Shown here: positions 48,912 through 58,407 of the stretch, piece by piece
How positions within the stretch are numbered: position 1 is the stretch's first letter
Layout of the letters: each line of letters opens with the position of its first letter
DNA from: Chlorella sorokiniana
Lineage: Eukaryota > Chlorophyta > Trebouxiophyceae > Chlorellales > Chlorellaceae
Length of the DNA: 64,000 nucleotides
Reading direction: 5' to 3'
NCBI GenBank assembly: GCA_025917655.1
Contig: CP084611.1
Location: forward strand, 2,976,001-3,040,000
Notes under the pieces: model-generated
What the model saw: only the letters and a program-made list of their open reading frames with translations
What the model was told of the DNA's origin: nothing
The model's database searches: none
Position numbers and translations under genes: made by a program

Positions 48912-51184
48912 ATGGGAGAGGACTTTGCTGCAGCGGTCCACACTTTGGCCGAGTCTGTGTTGCCTTTGAGCAAACGATGACGCCCGGGAGTTCCTTGAAA
49001 GGCATCCGTTGGACGCATGGTTCATGTAGGCGCTTTTGTTGCGCTTTACGACACTGTCCTGCAGCTGTGCTGCCGCGGCACTGCCGTCCCACCCACTTGT
49101 ACTACTGTGGTGCAGGGAGCTGGGGGCGCTAACGTGCCGGAGTCACTCATAAATGCTGCCGCACCTGCTTTTGCAAAGGTCTTTGAGACTGAGTTTGGTG
49201 AGGAGCCGCCCGCTCCAGCATCAGTTGATGAGGAGGCACCCGCTGAAGCATCCCACCACCAGCTGCCGTGCATCCTTGCTGTGCCTTCTGCAGGCGCCTC
49301 ACTCCTCCCGCACCTCTTGCCATACGCGGAGGCAGCGCTCCAATCGCCATCCACGCCGCTGCGGCGCCTGGCGGTCCAACAGCTTGGGCAGGTGCTGGCT
49401 TCGCAGCTGGGACCGCCGCAGCGCTGCATGGAGCTGCTGCTAGCGGCTCTGCAGGATGAAGATGTGGGTGTGGCCTCGGCTGCCGAGGCAGCGCTGACGC
49501 AGCTGGGCCGCCCGCAGGCAGCAGCACAAGCGCAGCTGTCGCACCTGCTGAGCGGCGCCCACGCCTGGGGCGGCGCTCTGATGCGCATGGCCGCCTGCGC
49601 CGACCCGCTGCTGCGCCTGCGGGCGCTCACTCTGGCGGTGGCGTTGGCGGCGCAGTCGCCGGCGGCGGGGGCAGCGGTGCGGGATTCCGGGCTGCTGGAG
49701 CGGCTGCTAAGGGAGCTGGAGGATGCGGGTGGGGAGCGGGTGTGGGGGGAGGGGGAGGGGCACGGACCCGGCAGGAAGGGAGGCATGAGCTGTGGGGGCG
49801 GGTGCTGCACCCACCAGCCGGCCACCCGAGCAGCTTCTCTGGCGCTGCTGCCCCCTGCCCTGCGGCGTGCCCCCAGCTGACGCGGCGGCCGCCCGCGCAG
49901 GCGACCTGCTGACCTGCATGGCGGCGCTGCAGCTGCTGCGCGATGCGGCGGAGCGGTGCGACGCGGGCATGGCGGCGGCGCTGACGGCTGCGGTGCTGCC
50001 CCGCCTGCAGCCCCTGCTGCAACACCCCGAGCCGCTGCTGCAGGGCGGCGCCCTGCGCGCCGCCGCTGCGCTGGTTGGGCGGGGCCTGGAGGCTGAGGCG
50101 GCGCCCATGGTGCTGGACGGCCCCCAGGCGCCGCTGGCCAACGGAGGGGGCGACGAGGGCGACAGCAGCGCGGGGGCGCCGACGCGCTGCTGCCTGCCCT
50201 GAAGCGGGTCCTGGATGTGAGCGGTGCCGCGGAGGTGGAGCCTGAGCTGGCTCAAGCGGCGCTGGACGCCGGTGGGTGGGCCGGCATGGTTTGGGCCGCC
50301 GAGGCCAGGACCCGAGCTGCTGCCTGGGTGCCTCGTTCCGAGCTGCCCTCTCAGGCTTGGCTGCTTGTAGGGCTGAGCCTGCCACCAGCCTGCCCCCTAC
50401 AACACACCAGCCTGCGGTGCCAGCGGCCAGCGCCCTGCCCTCCCCCCCCCCCGCAGTGTCCATCCTGGGCCAGCAGCCGAGCGGCGGCGAGGCCCTGCTG
50501 AGCTGCCGAGCGTCGGTGGTCGGCGACGTGGCGTACACCGCGCTGGGGCGCGCCCCAGCGCCGCCCTGCGCGTGGCGGCCCTGCATGCCCTGGCGGCGGT
50601 GGCGGGGGCGGAGCGCGGGGTGCGCAGCAGGCAGCTGCTGGGAGAGGCGGCGGAGGCCGCGCTACGGGTGGCAGTGTTTGAAGGCAAGCGGGGGCACCCT
50701 GCTGCGCCAGCTGCAGCGGCGGCTTCTCCCAGCGTGGCTCACCCTGCTGCACACCCATCGCTCCTCCACTGCACATGCAGGCGCGGCATCCGCATGGCCT
50801 GGTGCCACCCCCGCCGAGGTGCTGGCGCAGCAGCTGGCGCAGCCGTTTGCCGAGCAGCGCGTGGCGGGCTACCGCTGCCTGGCAGCGCTTGCGGCGCGCG
50901 ACTGGGCGGCGGGGCAGGTGTGCGGCCACGCACCGCTGCTGGACGCCCTGCTGGACCCGGCCAGCGAGAGCAGCAAGCAGGGCTGCGAGTGGCGCCACGC
51001 CTGCGCCGCCGCCCTGTCGGCCACCATCAGCGACGTCGCGGCGGGCGGCATCGGCGCCGGCGGGCCCCACGCCGCGGCGCTGCTGGCCGCGGCGCAGCGA
51101 GTGGCGGCGGCGGTGCGCTCGGGGCCCTATGGCGGCGGGGGCGGGGGGCAGGAGCAGCATGTGGCCACAGCGGCGGGCGTGTGA
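48912..51184 (+). CDS. PSMD5: 26S proteasome assembly chaperone PSMD5 (S5b/HSM3-like)
   Basis: PSMD5 is an armadillo/HEAT-repeat chaperone for the 19S base. Supported exons are 48912-49025, 49116-49197, 49294-49728, 49901-50271, 50457-50683 and 50781-51184. The start MGEDFAAAVHTLAESVLPLS runs, across a frame break near 48978, into DDAREFLERHPLDAWF, like plant PSMD5. Then come FAKVFETEFGASLLPHLLPY, LRRLAVQQLGQVL and RDSGLLERLLRELEDAG. VSILGQQPSGGEALL and LAQQLAQPFAEQRVAGYRCL, then LLDALLDPASESSKQG, align by eye with human PSMD5. The intron at 50684 has a GC donor. Breaks near 50175 and 50555 are single missing bases. The exon 1-2 junction does not fit in phase and is uncertain. Confidence 0.82.
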
Positions 51185-51985
51185 GGCAGCCTGCCTGCCT
51201 GCTGCCTTTGCGCGCTGCTTTCCGCTCCCTGTGACCCCCGGGGCCTGTTGCTTACAGAGCTGCTGACCACAATGCACTGGGCAGCAGCTGGGATGCAGGA
51301 CTGGCAGGGCAGGCACAAACGGCGGCAGGGGACTGCCTCACTAGAGCGGCAGGTGCCGAAGGGGTGGGGTGGGGTCACTAGGGCGGCCAGTGCACAGGTC
51401 TGGCAAGGCAGCATGCAGGGCTGCAACGCTGGCTGGCCGCCGGGGCTGTGGTGCAACAGATGAAGGGCATGGCTGCGCCGCCGCCGCCGGTCAAGGCTGA
51501 CGTGGGCGGGGGGGGAAGGGGGTGCGCAGTGCTGCTGCCGATGCAGGGTGCGGCTTTGGGGTGCAGAGGTAACTGGTGTGATCAAAATCACTTGCGCAGA
51601 GCTGCAGGCATGTCGGCGCAGCGGCTGGCAGGAAAATGCTGCCTGCAGAATGGGCTTGCAGGCATGAAATGCGTGGTGGCGGTAGTACAGGAGGTGCGGT
51701 GTGCAAAGCCCACGCTGGGTGGGATGCTGCCTGGAGATGGAACAGAGATCTGGTGGTGGTACAGCCTGGCTGGCGATGGAACGAAAGGGAGGGGCTGGGA
51801 AGCCTGGGAGGGGACAGTGTTTGCAGTGAGAGCCGTGGGGAAGCTGCGGCCGAGCGTGGAACGCTGGCGATGCTCCCCCTGGCGTGCTGTGCTGTGTGGG
51901 CGCGAGGCCAACATGGGCCCTGGCAAGCAGGCATCGTGCGCTGCTTGGACTGCCCCCGGCGCATGCACGAGGCGTGCTGCCCGCC
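51185..51985. other. Convergent 3' region
   Basis: This 801 bp stretch lies between PSMD5 and the PCMT-BTB gene, which converge. No conserved protein was found in any frame; open frames here are composition effects. It should contain both 3' UTRs. Confidence 0.45.
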
Positions 51986-54900
51986 TCAGTAGGAGGGGTC
52001 GGGCAGGGGCTGCTGCTCCGCCAGGCGGCGTATGTGCTGCACGAGGCGCGCGTGGGCGGCGCACGCCTCCTCGGCAACCAGCGCCACCTGCTCCCGGCTC
52101 AGGGCGGCGTACGACTCTGGGGGAAGGGGGAGGCAGGGGGCAAGTGCGGCTGTGGGGCCAGGCGCCGCCGAGCCTCCAGGCACCGCAGAGCCGCGACCCT
52201 CCACCAGTTTGCAGGCTGGGCATGGGGCATGGGGCGTGCGTGGCGCTGGCGGGCGCGGCAGCCCCAGCACGCACCCGTGGCCGCCACCGCCCGAAGTTGT
52301 GCACCACGTAGTCGAGGGCCACGGCGCGCAGGTGGGGCAGGCCAGCCTCGTCAGCCAGGGCCAGCAGCGCGGCGGCGGCGTCAGCCAGGCCTGCGGGGCG
52401 CGCGGGTGGGGGCGCGGGGGGCCCCAACGAGGGGTGAGCGTGCGGGGTGCCTGCCTGGCGGCGCTTGTGGGCAGTCGCCAGGGGCCAGCGCTTCGTCGCG
52501 CGCTGCGGGGGCGGGGCCTGCATGTAGCTGCACAGGCTGGCGGCGGCTGAGCTGGCGGGGGCCCACCCTCGTCCTCCTCGTGCTCCCCGTGGGGGGAGGC
52601 GCCGCGGCGCTGCTTGGCGGCGCCGCGCCGCTCGCGGCCGCGCAGCAGCTGCGCCAGCCTGTGCTCGCAGAGGGTGGCCAGGCGGGGGCAGGAGTAGTAG
52701 AGGGCCACGTGCAGCACCGCCACCGCCTCCTGAGGGTCACTGCACTCCTCCATGCCGTCTGCGGGCGGTGTGTGCGCGCGTGTGTCATGGCGGGGGGTCT
52801 CAGGCGCCTTGCTGGGCAGTGCAACCGGCTGGCAAGCTTTGCACCGCCCGGTGCCTGGGCACGCATGCACCCCCTCCCTCCTCCCCCTCACCCCCCGACA
52901 GCAGGCAGCCCACCCACCGTGGTAGACGTAGTGCAAAAAGGCGGCCACCGCGGGCGCCCAAAGTGGTCGGGCACGCGCACCACCTGCGCCTCGGAGTCGG
53001 CCCAGCCGGCGCCGCACCGCGCGGAAGTGGTCGCAGCGCTGGCGCAGCACCGCCCTGGGGGAGGTGCATGTGCATGCTTGGTGTGCGTGTCGTGCAGGTG
53101 TGTGTGAGAGGGGGCGGTTTGGGGAAAGGAACATGCGAGAGGAGGGGCAGCGCCGCCAGCTGCACGTCGCAAGCTGAGCCCGCCCACCGCGCCCAACGCT
53201 GGCGGCAGGCTCCCCGCGCTTTGCTGGGCGCTGCTGCCCCCGGCGCCTCATTCCCGCCGCGTCCCCCTCGTGGCCCCCTCCCCGCCCACCTGTGCGCCGG
53301 CAGCTCCCAGCCCGCCCCCTCAGCACGCAGTCGGGCTCCCGAGCTCCTCGGGGTCAGGCGGGGGGTGAGGGCTGCCCGCCTCGCTGCCGCCCCCGAGCTG
53401 CTGCTGGCGGCGGCCTCCATGGCGGCCTCATCGGCGGCGGAGCCCGAGGAGCAGGCGGAGAAGAGGCGGGAGAGACGGCGGCGGGGGCGCGTCTTGTCGC
53501 CGCCGGGGGCGTGCGGCGTGGGCGGCAGGCCGTCGATCACTGCAGGCATGGGCGGCAGAGCGTGCTGTGGCAGGGGAGGGAAGCGGACGCGCTCCGTGCG
53601 CACATGCTGCAGCAAAGCCCCAGGCAGCAGCTGGGACAGGCTTGCTGGGTGGGCTGCTCACCGCCAGAGGGCGAGGAAGATGGCATGAATGCGGCGCAGG
53701 CGTCGCCGTAGGAGCCTTGGGGCGTGGGGGTGGGGGTGGCGGCGGCGGTGATGGCGGCCACGTCGGCGGCGAAGGTGGAGGGGTGGTGAGCGGGTGCGGT
53801 GCGAGCGCGCCGCTCCCCCTCACCGTGGCCAGCAGCACCTCAGCGTCGCTGGGCACCTCCAGCTCGCTGAACCGCACCTGGCTCAGCACGCGCTGGCTCA
53901 CCGCCCCCGGGCCCCCGGCTGATGACGCGCAGGTCGCTGGGCGCCACCGGCACAACCACCAGCCCGCCCTCGGGCGCAGCAGCGCCAGCAGCGGCGCCAG
54001 GCGGTCGGGGGCACGAGGCGCCCACGTGCACGCGGTCAAACTGGCCCAGCCAGCGGGAGGCGGGCATGAACACGTTCTGCAGCTCAAAGCGCACGGAGCA
54101 GGCCGCCGCCGCATACCTGCGCGCATGGGGGAGGAGGGGGAGCCGTTGCGGGTCATGGCACACAGCGGCCAGCCTGGCGGTGGGTGGTAGCCCCGCACAG
54201 CACGCAGAAGGTCACCCTCTTCCAAGGGCGGCAGCCCGGCTGCCCCCCCCAACACACCAAACAAACACACACACTCACTCTGGGTTGCTGGCGGTGAGGC
54301 GTCGTGCCGCGTCTCGGCTCATGGCCAGTGCCTCGCGCCGCACGTCAAACCCAACGGCCACCCCGCCCCGCCCCACCAGGTAGGCGCCGCAGGCGGTGAG
54401 CAGCCCGCACCCGCTGCCCACATCCAGGAACTGTGAGGGGAGGTGGCGGCGAGGGTGGGGGTGGCGGGGGCCGGGCTTGCAGGCTGCGCTGCGTGCTGGG
54501 CAGGACGCCGGGCGCTTTGCAGCGCGTGGCACCCTTCATGCCGGCCCCCCCGGCCCCTCCCCCTCCTCACCCTGTGCCCCGGCCGCAGCTGCAGCGCCTC
54601 CAGGCACGTGGCGTGCATGTGCGGCGCGGAGATGTTGAAGTCGTGGCGCTCCACGCGGATGGGGGCATCCACCAGCGCCTCGTCGCGGTGCTCAGCAGGC
54701 ACAAACAGGTCGCGCGGGCACAGCTGCATCGCGCGCTTGACGGGGTCGCTGCGCAGGGGGGGCAGGGGGAGGGGTGGGGGCGCGCGCACTGGGCCAAGCG
54801 AACAGCGTGCGAGGCAGGGGGTATACAGCGCACGGCTGTACGGCCTGGGCCATCGCCTGGCCTGCACCTCTGGATCACGCCGTTGCGCCGCAGGTTCTGC

Positions 54901-55396
54901 ACCAGGTCCTCGTTGGTGGCGGCGGCGCCTGCTCAGAGCACAGGCAGGCGGGGGCGGGTGCGGCAGGGGAGCCACTCGGCAGGGATGCATGGCACCAGGC
55001 ACAAGCATCCCCTCGACTGATGTTACGTCACACACAATGCGTGCGGGCCTGCCAAGCTGCTGCACTCTGCCTTCCTCTCACCATGCTCCATGATGCGCCC
55101 GCCGGCGATGAGGCGCAGGAAGTGGTGCAGCGGCAGGCGGTTGGGGTTGGCGCCCTGTCGGCGCCCCATCAGCACGGGCTGCGGCAGGGGCGCATGGTCA
55201 ACCCTCCATCAAGGTTGGAGGTGTGCCCCAAGGCTGGCAGGGCAGAAGCAGTGCGCCCGTGAACAACATAGCGGGCGCCGGCGCACGCCAACACTACCTC
55301 GTCGTCGTCGCTATCCATCTGCTCCTCCATCCCATCATTCGCCTCATCCTCACTATCCATGTGGAAAGGCTCACGTTCAGCGTCCCGGCGCGCCAT
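51986..55396 (-). CDS. Candidate PCMT - BTB - BACK fusion protein
   Basis: The 5' exons (55396-55298, 55178-55082, 54928-54868, 54748-54571, 54430-54279, 54116-53824) encode a PCMT domain: an acidic start (MARRDAEREPFHMDSEDE), TNEDLVQNLRRNGVIQSDPV, RDLFVP, FNISAPHMHATCLEALQL, the SAM site FLDVGSGCGLLTACGAYLVG, FDRVHVGASCP and PEGGLVVVPV. Spacing resembles PCMTD1-type proteins. No stop separates this from the 3' exons (53540-53290, 53054-52918, 52758-52567, from 52546, 52390-52275, 52116-51986), which encode a BTB domain (ELPAHRAVLRQRCDHFRAV, AAFLHYVYHG) and BACK-like helices (AVAVLHVALYYSCPRLATLC, DEAGLPHLRAVALDYVVHNF). The linking exon near 53715-53668 does not fit phase exactly, so two separate genes, the second starting at Met 53549, remain possible. 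Confidence 0.65.
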
Positions 55397-56191
55397 GTTG
55401 AGCTGCAAAGCGTGGGGCAGACTGCGGTGCTGTCTCCCACTCGCAGCCTTGTGCCGGCGCCACATGTGATCCCCAGGCAGATAACACCATTTGATAGCCG
55501 TGTGAAGACTGAAGACGCACCCTGAAGCGCCTGACGCCCGCGCAGGGTTCCCCTTATTGGCTGAGGGGCTCACGGCCGCCTTCAATCGGAATGAGACGTC
55601 CTTATCGGTTCTATGCAGCACTTCCTCAGACTGGGAAGCAATGTAGACCAGTGCACTCGCTCTCCGCCAGGCTTCTACTCGCCACTCTTGAACGTGTCCC
55701 TGTGCCTGTGGAGGAGCCACGGCAGCCTTGTCCGGAAATACAGGGCGAATTCCGCTATTGTAGCCGTTTCCGACACCTGATCGGCTATGAGCATCATGGG
55801 GCGCTGGCGCCACAAGGGCAACCGCTTGAAAGCACCACGGCCATGCTGCTGCTGCTGTTACACCCGTGTACATCACAATAGCGATGACAGGCCTGGGCTG
55901 GCACACGACCCAGAAAGTAAACGCCACACAAACAGAGGGGGAGAGAGGGGCGGTCGTCGACATGGGCTGCAAAGGGGAGGCAGAAATGTCAACCAACAAG
56001 AAGGGAAGTCATGCAGAAGGACTCGGGCAACGGTGGGGAATGCACGCATGCTGGATGCATGCGAAGAAGGGAGGGCAGGCTCTAAGGTGGGAGTCAGAAA
56101 AGGCTCGCAAGAGATGTGCCAACGGGTGAATGCAGTGGCCGAGGAAACAGCTGCTGAACAAACCATACTTGTAAGCGGTCGGTCAGGCGCA
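55397..56191. other. Spacer between the U-box gene and the PCMT-BTB gene
   Basis: This 795 bp stretch holds the 3' UTR of the U-box gene and the promoter of the PCMT-BTB gene, both minus strand. A long open frame runs upstream of the PCMT start codon up to 55999, but its composition is not protein-like. No separate gene is seen. Confidence 0.4.
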
Positions 56192-58407
56192 TTACACGGC
56201 GTCCTGTTCTGCTGCGGGCGCTTGCACTGCGATGGCATCATCTTCGTCATCCGTGGCGTCATCAGCCTCCCACTCGCCCTCCTCCTCGTCCTGCGCCTCT
56301 CCTAATGCCAGCTTTGGGATGTCGCTGGCTACCTCGCTCTCGCTGTAGCCTTCCGTGGGCTCCATCACGCGTCCCAGCAGCCACGCATGGCTGCAATGCT
56401 TGTACCGCCGCAGCTGTGGCAAGCTGATTGCCGGCGGCTCTGCCACTTCACCAGCGCTGAGGCGCAGGGCCAGCAGGCACCCCGCTGCGTCGCGCTTGTC
56501 GTAGCGCACCAGCCAGTCTCCTTTAAAGCCTGCCATGTGGAAAGGGGAGGCAGGGCGTGTGACGCTCAGGGGCCATGCAGCGGCACGCGGACGGCAAGGC
56601 TGGCAGGCGTCGAAGGGCGTGCAACAGGCAAGCTGCAGCTGCACGCGCGCCCGCTGCTGCCCACCCGCCTCCCGCTCCGGCTCCTCCTGCAGCACCAGCT
56701 GCTTGAGCAGGCGCACGCCGCCGTGGCGCCGCACTTCAAGCCGTCCCTCTGCGCACTTGCACATCAGCCATAGGGCGGAGGCGGCGGAGCAGCGGTTGTA
56801 CTCAAAAGGCACCCTGCGGGCATGGGGGCAGGTGGGGTGCCATGAAGCATGCTGTCGGCTTCAGCCCCATGCTCCCGATGTACTGTGCCGCCAGGCAGGC
56901 CACCTCAGCCACTGACTTGGAACGGTGTCCCGGTGACCGGTGTTGAGGAAGCACCCGCAAGCAGCCCCCAAGCACCCCCTCCACACATGTGCGCCCCAGC
57001 AGCGCCCAGGCCCGAGGCCCGCAGCGCGCGCCGCCCCAGCCGGCCCCTCGCCCGCGCCCCGCGCCCGCTCACCCGAGGTCCAGCTGCTGCAGCAGGCCGC
57101 GCACCGCCCCCGCCTCCACCAGCACTCGCGGCATGGAGGGCGAGGCGCGCGCCAGGCTGGCCAGCAGGCGGGCCGCGCTGTGCTGGCCGTAAGTGTGCGG
57201 GGACCACAGCAGGGCCACCGCGGGGCAGGCTGCCACCGCGGCCAGCAGCGCCACCTGTTCGGCACGCTTGTACTGCGACAGCGCCGCCGCCGCCACGCCG
57301 CTACCGTATGGGTCGCCCTGGCGCATGAGCCACACCAAATCCAGCAGCATGGCCTGGGCGAGGGGGTGGGTGGGGCGGGGGTGAGGGTCCGCCTCGGCGC
57401 CGGAAGGCAGGGTGGCCAACCGATTCCCTGCGACAGGCACCGCGTCCCTGCCGCCAAACTGTGCCAGCCGCCAACGGCGCGAGCCGGGCACGCGGCCCAC
57501 CTCCATGGCTTGATGGCGCGAGGGCGTCTCCTCCTCCCGCCCCCACCCTATCAGCAGGTCATTCACAGCGCCGGCGGCCAGGCCCCGCTTGTAAACGTCG
57601 CCGCTGCGCAGCTCCCCAGCAGCCGCGGCACACTCTCCCCGCCTGCTGCAGCACATCTGGCGGCGGATCTAGCGGCGGCAGCGGTGACAGGCCATGGGCG
57701 GCGCGCCACCCGGCGATGCGCTGGCGCACAGAGGGTAGGCGGACCACCTGCAGGCGGGGAGCGGTGCTGACGGTCTGCTCCTGGCATGGGACCCGCTGCA
57801 GCCGACAGAACAAGAGCCACGCCGCCTTGAAACGCTGCGCCTGCACAGGGAACCCCTGCACAGGGAGCCCCTTGCGCTCCTCCCCCGGGCATGCGCCCGC
57901 CTCACCTCCACATCCCGCATCTCCAGGTTTGTCTTAGGGCAGGTGCGGCTGCCGGTCGCCAGCCAGCCGCGCAGGCTGCAAAGGCAGTAGATCTGGCCGG
58001 TACCGCACAGCAACACGGGGTCTGACATGCAGGCCAAGGTGATGGGGTCCAGGAACTCCTGCGGGGGGTGGGGGTGGGGAAGCCGAGGGCAGGTGGAGGA
58101 GGTGAAGGGCCCAACCGACCCCGTGCCTGGCAGCACGCATGCGGGGCCACAGGTGGGAAGGCAGCGACCGCGGCCATCGTCGTACCTCAGGAACATCTTC
58201 CTCGTCTTCCCCGTCCGGCCTGCTGGGCTCAGCGCCGAGGGCGCCATCAGCTGTGGCGCCAAGCAGGCGCTGGGCTAGCCAGCCAAGCATCCAGCTCCTG
58301 CCCTTGCTGTGGGGCTGACGGCGGTACGACTGCCACACCAGCCAGGTGACCACAGCGCTAGCAGCGCAGGTTGCAGCGCCAGTGCGGCCAGAGGGCAGCA
58401 AAAGCAT
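56192..58407 (-). CDS. U-box protein with N-terminal TM helix and ARM-like repeats
   Basis: The first exon (58407-58186) encodes a hydrophobic segment (TCAASAVVTWLVWQS) and an acidic end (DGEDEEDVPE). The second (58058-57906) carries the U-box: EFLDPITLACMSDPVLLCGT, GQIYCLCSLRGWLATGSRTC, PKTNLEMRDVE. The third (57747-57501) continues VVRLPSVRQRIAGWRAAHG, the usual U-box exit. The fourth (57353-57073) has alpha-helical repeats such as AEQVALLAAVAACPAVALLW and VLVEAGAVRGLLQQLDLG, resembling armadillo repeats. Later exons include FEYNRCSAASALWLMCKCAE and the last (56529-56192) ends in an Asp/Glu-rich tail. It is probably an E3 ubiquitin ligase; membrane anchoring is inference. One frame break lies near 57640 and the exons at 56990-56540 are not fully resolved. 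Confidence 0.75.

Follow-up and report, generated by a model that had tools for sequence, protein, structure and literature searches.

The window analysed here, the whole 64,000-nucleotide stretch C1:2976001-3040000 of the 38.8 Mb, 15-contig Chlorella sorokiniana genome, carries on its minus strand, at 55396-51986, one gene encoding a single protein with a PCMT (isoaspartate methyltransferase), a BTB and a BACK domain. Inspection of the minus strand over 57000-50500, with its open frames and splice borders, gives the PCMT, BTB and BACK exons in this order, and three homologues, each a single PCMT-BTB protein, matched the exons in order when compared with the window by tblastn. The homologue-guided reading path contains no stop codon. 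Such a fusion had been suggested by a sequence-only reading of the locus and is borne out by exon order, tblastn, Pfam matches and the state of the relatives, 57 of 64 of which are fused.

The same reading had placed a splice site at 53823 and, after an intron, a linking exon at 53715-53668 that did not fit in phase by one base. Both are ruled out, as 53823-53717 is coding and not intron: it encodes ERRARTAPAHHPSTFAADVAAI..., matched by ERRARTAPGHHPSTYAEDVRTI in Micractinium, is conserved across homologues as ERRARTAPxHHPSTFAxDVAAI and is continuous with the supposed linking exon. Since homologues encode this segment, exon 6 spans 54116-53662, the linking exon is merely its tail and the gene has 11 exons instead of 12 (Table 1). 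The one-base misfit results from a frame change near 53823-53819. The PCMT frame is open to 53428, as had been noted, but the conserved frame is a different one.

Table 1 Exons, frame changes and possible poly(A) signal of the PCMT-BTB-BACK gene
Feature	Position	Strand	Basis
Exon 1: start codon, acidic N-terminus	55298..55396	-	tblastn match with P0003 (Chlorella vulgaris); acidic start common to homologues
Exon 2: LPLHHFLRLIAGGR segment	55082..55178	-	tblastn with homologues
Exon 3: start of PCMT domain	54868..54928	-	tblastn with homologues
Exon 4: PCMT pre-motif I (NISAPHMHA)	54571..54748	-	tblastn; conservation in homologues
Exon 5: PCMT S-adenosylmethionine (SAM) motif I (LDVGSGCG)	54279..54430	-	Pfam match, tblastn
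Exon 6: end of PCMT, conserved joint ERRxRTAPxxxPSTFAxDVAAI, start of linker	53662..54116	-	tblastn
Exon 6 frame changes	near 54010, 53971, 53905, 53821	-	
Exon 7: linker and first part of BTB, with frame changes near 53394, 53338, 53320	53290..53539	-	tblastn
Exon 8: BTB core, W-A-D at the hydrophobic-x-E position	52918..53054	-	tblastn; homologue conservation
Exon 8 frame changes	near 53010 and 52953	-	
Exon 9: last part of BTB	52567..52758	-	tblastn
Exon 10: first part of BACK; frame change near 52290	52275..52390	-	reading against homologues
Exon 11: last part of BACK and stop codon	51986..52116	-	tblastn
TGTAA that may serve as poly(A) signal of the entire gene	51252..51256	-	motif scan

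The reading path shifts frame at ten places, inside four exons (6, 7, 8 and 10). Two of the shifted stretches are recovered as separate tblastn matches, 53907-53818 with all three homologues and 53022-52933 with two of the three; the remaining changes were placed by eye against homologues. Within single exons the changes tend to offset one another: the starting frame is regained in exons 6, 7 and 8 but not in exon 10, and such offsetting is not required of random errors. A canonical PIMT exon elsewhere in the genome (locus L004, C7:64415-67513; C7:65915, locus position 1501-1640) also has a frame break, in a G/C run, with its SAM motif and SAPHMHA motif in different frames, so that such breaks are not peculiar to the PCMT-BTB gene. 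They are most likely assembly errors and perhaps a general trait of this assembly.

The ten frame changes and the phase misfit might alternatively mean that two adjacent genes, or an assembly join, have been taken for one, and the Chlorella variabilis model P0019 does end after the PCMT part and linker. Against this, fused proteins make up 57 of the 64 relatives, those of Chlorella vulgaris and of two Micractinium species included, the joint is conserved from algae to amoebae, and the canonical PIMT exon has the same kind of frame break. Nor does a stop codon or TGTAA, which we take to be the green-algal poly(A) signal, separate the two parts in the conserved path: on the minus strand within 51000-55500, TGTAA occurs once, at 51256, past the BTB stop. 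With the tblastn exon order and the uninterrupted path, these observations rule out two separate genes and make any such misreading of the locus extremely improbable. Of the two causes that had been offered for the misfit, sequence error or two genes, the former is favoured.

A composite protein of 588 residues, hand-spliced and read across the frame breaks, matches Pfam PCMT over residues 70-279 (1.9e-33, 116.4 bits, above the curated cut-off), BTB over residues 383-479 (1.8e-9, 38.2 bits; cut-off 20.5) and BACK over residues 515-557 (1.8e-4, 22.0 bits; cut-off 20.9). Its score on the SPOP/BPM-type BACK model (PF24570) is 20.4 bits, with a cut-off of 27.4. Pfam gave no match to a MATH domain in the composite, PCMT standing in its place, and none to a SOCS box at E <= 0.1. 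In a set of 70 homologues, hand-picked from 114 proteins, mostly long and all with BTB by selection, BACK is matched at E <= 0.01 in 42 (PF07707) and 21 (PF24570). Exon 10, part of BACK, appeared in tblastn as a 14-residue piece only, with homologue P0001 alone.

The search with the composite returned 64 proteins, and the 57 that combine PCMT and BTB comprise 51 identified by precomputed Pfam matches and six by added scans (P0058 and P0059 lie marginally below the BTB cut-off). The closest named full-length matches are from Micractinium tetrahymenae (66%) and Chlorella vulgaris (60%). Besides these two species, named organisms with the fusion include M. conductrix, Auxenochlorella, Trebouxia, Coccomyxa, Apatococcus and Symbiochloris, a second set of Pleodorina, Monoraphidium and Raphidocelis, and, as a third, Bryopsis, so that several green-algal groups are represented; the amoebozoan Arcella has it too. 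P0061, another protein of this series, is probably from the glaucophyte Cyanophora. An Arcella-led profile search contributed another 50 rows; by precomputed Pfam 39 of them have both domains, Acanthamoeba castellanii included, seven have BTB only and four PCMT only. Each search scored about 8000 candidates, those with most shared words; the distribution is that among the candidates scored and does not bear on land plants or other groups. The Chlorella vulgaris and Acanthamoeba proteins match at 36% over PCMT and beyond, across the joint (ERKKATTIEIPPDTFVQDFARLLNN vs ERRQRTAPGHQPSTFAQDVAAIVGG). Because the joint itself is shared between them, the sequences point to one ancient fusion instead of repeated joins. 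The sequence-only reading had named consistently separate genes in homologues as fatal to its proposal; the 57 fused proteins among 64 relatives show otherwise.

The seven proteins of the 64 without a BTB match are varied. P0010 and P0063 resemble fragments or misread models, P0019 and P0048 resemble cut gene models, P0064 is PCMTD-like, and P0051 and P0054 complete the list. P0019 (Chlorella variabilis CHLNCDRAFT_134794, 349 aa) stops after PCMT and a linker resembling that of the fused relatives, and looks like a cut model hiding a BTB half. The linker before BTB is long in the algal members.

The PCMT half retains the catalytic motifs. In the chosen set of 70 homologues, the SAPH motif keeps its Ser in 69 (the other has a gap) and its His in 68, and all 70 have the Asp of SAM motif I; the window gene has the SAPH motif and SAM motif I as well. 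Counting on the 1i1n sequence (+1 for the missing Met) identifies the SAPH Ser with S60 of PCMT1; in one study, S60A of human PCMT1 serves as the inactive control (PMC11974815). Where PCMT-BTB has SAPH and LDVG, SAPC and LNLG are found in three vertebrate PCMTD proteins. On the PIMT equivalog TIGR00080 (cut-off 159.05 bits), run on homologues, Chlorella vulgaris scores 89.6, Arcella 97.6 and Acanthamoeba 90.6 bits, the Arcella and Acanthamoeba models being without parts of the PCMT domain; fly PCMT1, as a control, scores 191.9 bits, over the cut-off. Judged by these profile scores, PCMT-BTB is not a plain PIMT. It differs from PCMT1/PIMT in falling below the equivalog cut-off, in lying outside the branch of PCMT1 and the archaeal enzymes and in carrying an additional BTB-BACK.

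Kinship was examined with a tree of 42 rows: 24 PCMT-BTB (chosen from 70), three PCMTD (from vertebrates only, out of 120 listed among 6356 matches), three PCMT1 and 12 archaeal (chosen from 80 loci). The window protein is represented in it by homologues, and the reference rows are few. PCMT-BTB and PCMTD fall on one side of a branch supported at 100/99.7, with PCMT1 and archaeal PIMT on the other; the test rejects a grouping of PCMT-BTB with PCMT1 that excludes PCMTD (p-AU 0.018). The same main split appears in an earlier, 78-row tree, which came with long-branch warnings. With profiles of PCMT-BTB, the scores are 158-170 bits for five PCMTD proteins, 120-136 for three PCMT1 and 107-142 for twelve archaeal PIMTs. 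In the best tree PCMTD sits among the amoeba-type PCMT-BTB rows (87/88); this nesting was not adopted, as a single PCMT-BTB clade stays unrejected (p-AU 0.352) and PCMTD has a long branch (2.05). The sequence-only reading had suggested that the alga may have reached the coupling of isoaspartate recognition to ubiquitination by an adaptor other than that of animals. An origin of this coupling in the alga by itself is not upheld: since amoebae carry the same fusion and joint and the PCMT domain shares the PCMTD branch, the sequences make shared ancestry of the PCMT-BTB and PCMTD couplings more likely than convergence.

A stretch of animal PCMTD (LPPxAVxxLQDLARI) that by eye resembled a remnant of the SPOP-like joint was ruled out by a joint profile: the tails of five PCMTD proteins gave -1.6 to -4.2 bits, values equalled by 57 to 271 among 400 shuffled sequences. 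P0064, a PCMTD-like protein of a protist (961 aa), has a large insert in its methyltransferase domain and a long C-terminal part without assignment; it groups with PCMTD at 89/98 on a long branch in the 78-row tree, and an F-box suspected in it by eye has no Pfam support.

The BTB-BACK half is SPOP-like. By sequence profile (Arcella and algal profiles) its nearest solved relative is SPOP, the Arcella match extending through BACK, and PCMT occupies the position of SPOP's substrate-binding MATH domain. At the hydrophobic-x-E position, which we take to be a CUL3 contact motif, the first residue is hydrophobic in 69 of the 70 chosen homologues and the last is D in 54 and E in 15; the window protein has W-A-D. 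Cullin matches occur at three places in the Chlorella sorokiniana genome, and the joined pieces on contig C6 match Cullin-3 (5.4e-52) better than CUL4A (1e-37), identifying a CUL3-like gene. BTB matches elsewhere in the genome lie at no fewer than two places, in a search that missed the PCMT-BTB gene itself. SOCS and MATH gave no match in the genome, but the positive controls were likewise unmatched.

Animal PCMTD1 and PCMTD2 offer a close comparison: their PCMT domain belongs to the same branch and is likewise joined to an adaptor module for a cullin ligase. They differ in their C-terminal SOCS box (PF07525), where PCMT-BTB has BTB-BACK, and in the motifs given above. The structure of PCMTD1 has been solved within CUL5-RBX2-Elongin BC (CRL5; 9oma), and PCMTD2 is reported to act as a CUL5 receptor for parts of T-cell receptor and IL2 signalling in T cells (PMC10798966), in keeping with the earlier suggestion that a BTB adaptor here replaces the animal SOCS box. 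SPOP and plant BPM, CUL3 receptors of MATH-BTB-BACK type, have MATH where PCMT-BTB has PCMT, and the algal PCMT-BTB proteins differ from them also in the long linker before BTB. PCMT chemistry is likewise tied to ubiquitination in the PCMT1-cereblon axis (C-terminal cyclic imide degron, CRL4), as described in PMC11974815; there methyltransferase and receptor are separate proteins, whereas in PCMT-BTB they would be one.

We propose, with a probability of about 0.6, that the protein is a CUL3 substrate receptor with a SPOP-like BTB-BACK, whose PCMT domain binds, and perhaps methylates, isoaspartyl proteins and so leads to their ubiquitination. The BTB-BACK half would probably dock on CUL3-RBX1 as a dimer, and the probable targets of the PCMT half are segments of damaged proteins with isoaspartyl or otherwise altered carboxyl groups; these proteins would thereby be brought to the ligase. 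Since the SAM motif and the serine position whose replacement inactivates PCMT1 are kept, the PCMT half may also methylate the bound substrate, or create a degron in the manner of PCMT1 and cereblon. Damage might thus be repaired or, should repair fail, destroyed, both by one protein. The single gene, its domain order, its deep conservation, the SPOP-like BTB-BACK, the kept motifs and the CUL3-like gene are observed; docking, methylation, substrate and degradation are inferred, the role as a CUL3 receptor with a substrate-finding PCMT domain from domain position and kinship.

Several points weigh against a ligase function. BTB domains often serve oligomerisation alone; the Glu of the hydrophobic-x-E position is D in 54 of the 70 homologues; and the algal model ranked BCL6-type BTB rows over SPOP. 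Together with the retention of the catalytic motifs in 68 to 70 of 70 homologues, they would fit a repair methyltransferase whose BTB-BACK merely dimerises or localises it, with no ubiquitin ligase involved. We regard this as rather unlikely, given that the nearest solved BTB-BACK by profile is that of a CUL3 receptor, that a CUL3-like gene is present, that the related PCMTD is a CUL5 receptor and that the genome's canonical PIMT exon would render a second plain repair enzyme superfluous.

A CUL3 receptor might also use PCMT as a peptide-binding or SAM-sensing module for specific native proteins and not for isoaspartyl damage. According to PMC10798966, PCMTD2 binds the tails of IL2RB and CD247, whose ubiquitination it promotes, and PCMTD1 binds SAM while isoaspartyl methylation by it was undetected, a negative result also reported in PMC11514484. 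The SAPH and LDVG motifs that PCMT-BTB keeps, and that are altered in the three vertebrate PCMTD, speak against this use, which we consider improbable, more so than the repair-only function. A receptor for isoaspartyl damage remains our preferred reading.

As to how the two couplings are related, we offer a doubtful but possible scenario in which PCMT-BTB is the older: an early eukaryote would have put PCMT for MATH on a SPOP-like CUL3 receptor, animal PCMTD1/2 would descend from this form with BTB swapped for a SOCS box (CUL5), and the algal and amoebal protein, with its enzyme motifs intact, may write or repair the damage mark and pass failures on to the proteasome.

The pairing of PCMT with BTB is already visible in the Pfam annotation of databases, where these proteins are named hypothetical protein, isoaspartate O-methyltransferase, PCMT-domain protein or BTB/POZ protein. 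Among the matches listed in a search of open-licence PMC papers by title and start of abstract, none had a PCMT-BTB protein as its subject. New, against this background, is the recognition of PCMT-BTB as an ancient counterpart of PCMTD that is SPOP-like, probably linked to CUL3 and intact in its catalytic motifs. PCMTD1/2 pose a puzzle in combining a methyltransferase-like domain with undetected isoaspartyl activity and yet serving as receptors of a CUL5 ligase; PCMT-BTB, a relative conserved over great distances that carries intact motifs next to an adaptor of CUL3 type, gives them an evolutionary context. As it occurs in Acanthamoeba and in algae that are easy to grow, the idea of repair or destruction is directly testable.

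Some minor observations complete the analysis. A comparison of plasmid records with P0003 (Chlorella vulgaris) gave two distant prokaryotic matches and was uninformative. The PCMT-BTB relative P0092 (629 aa) seems, by eye, to hold two consecutive BTB-like stretches. Two open frames that flank the gene, at 57069-57668 on the minus strand and 50246-51184 on the plus strand, resemble armadillo-type repeats by eye.
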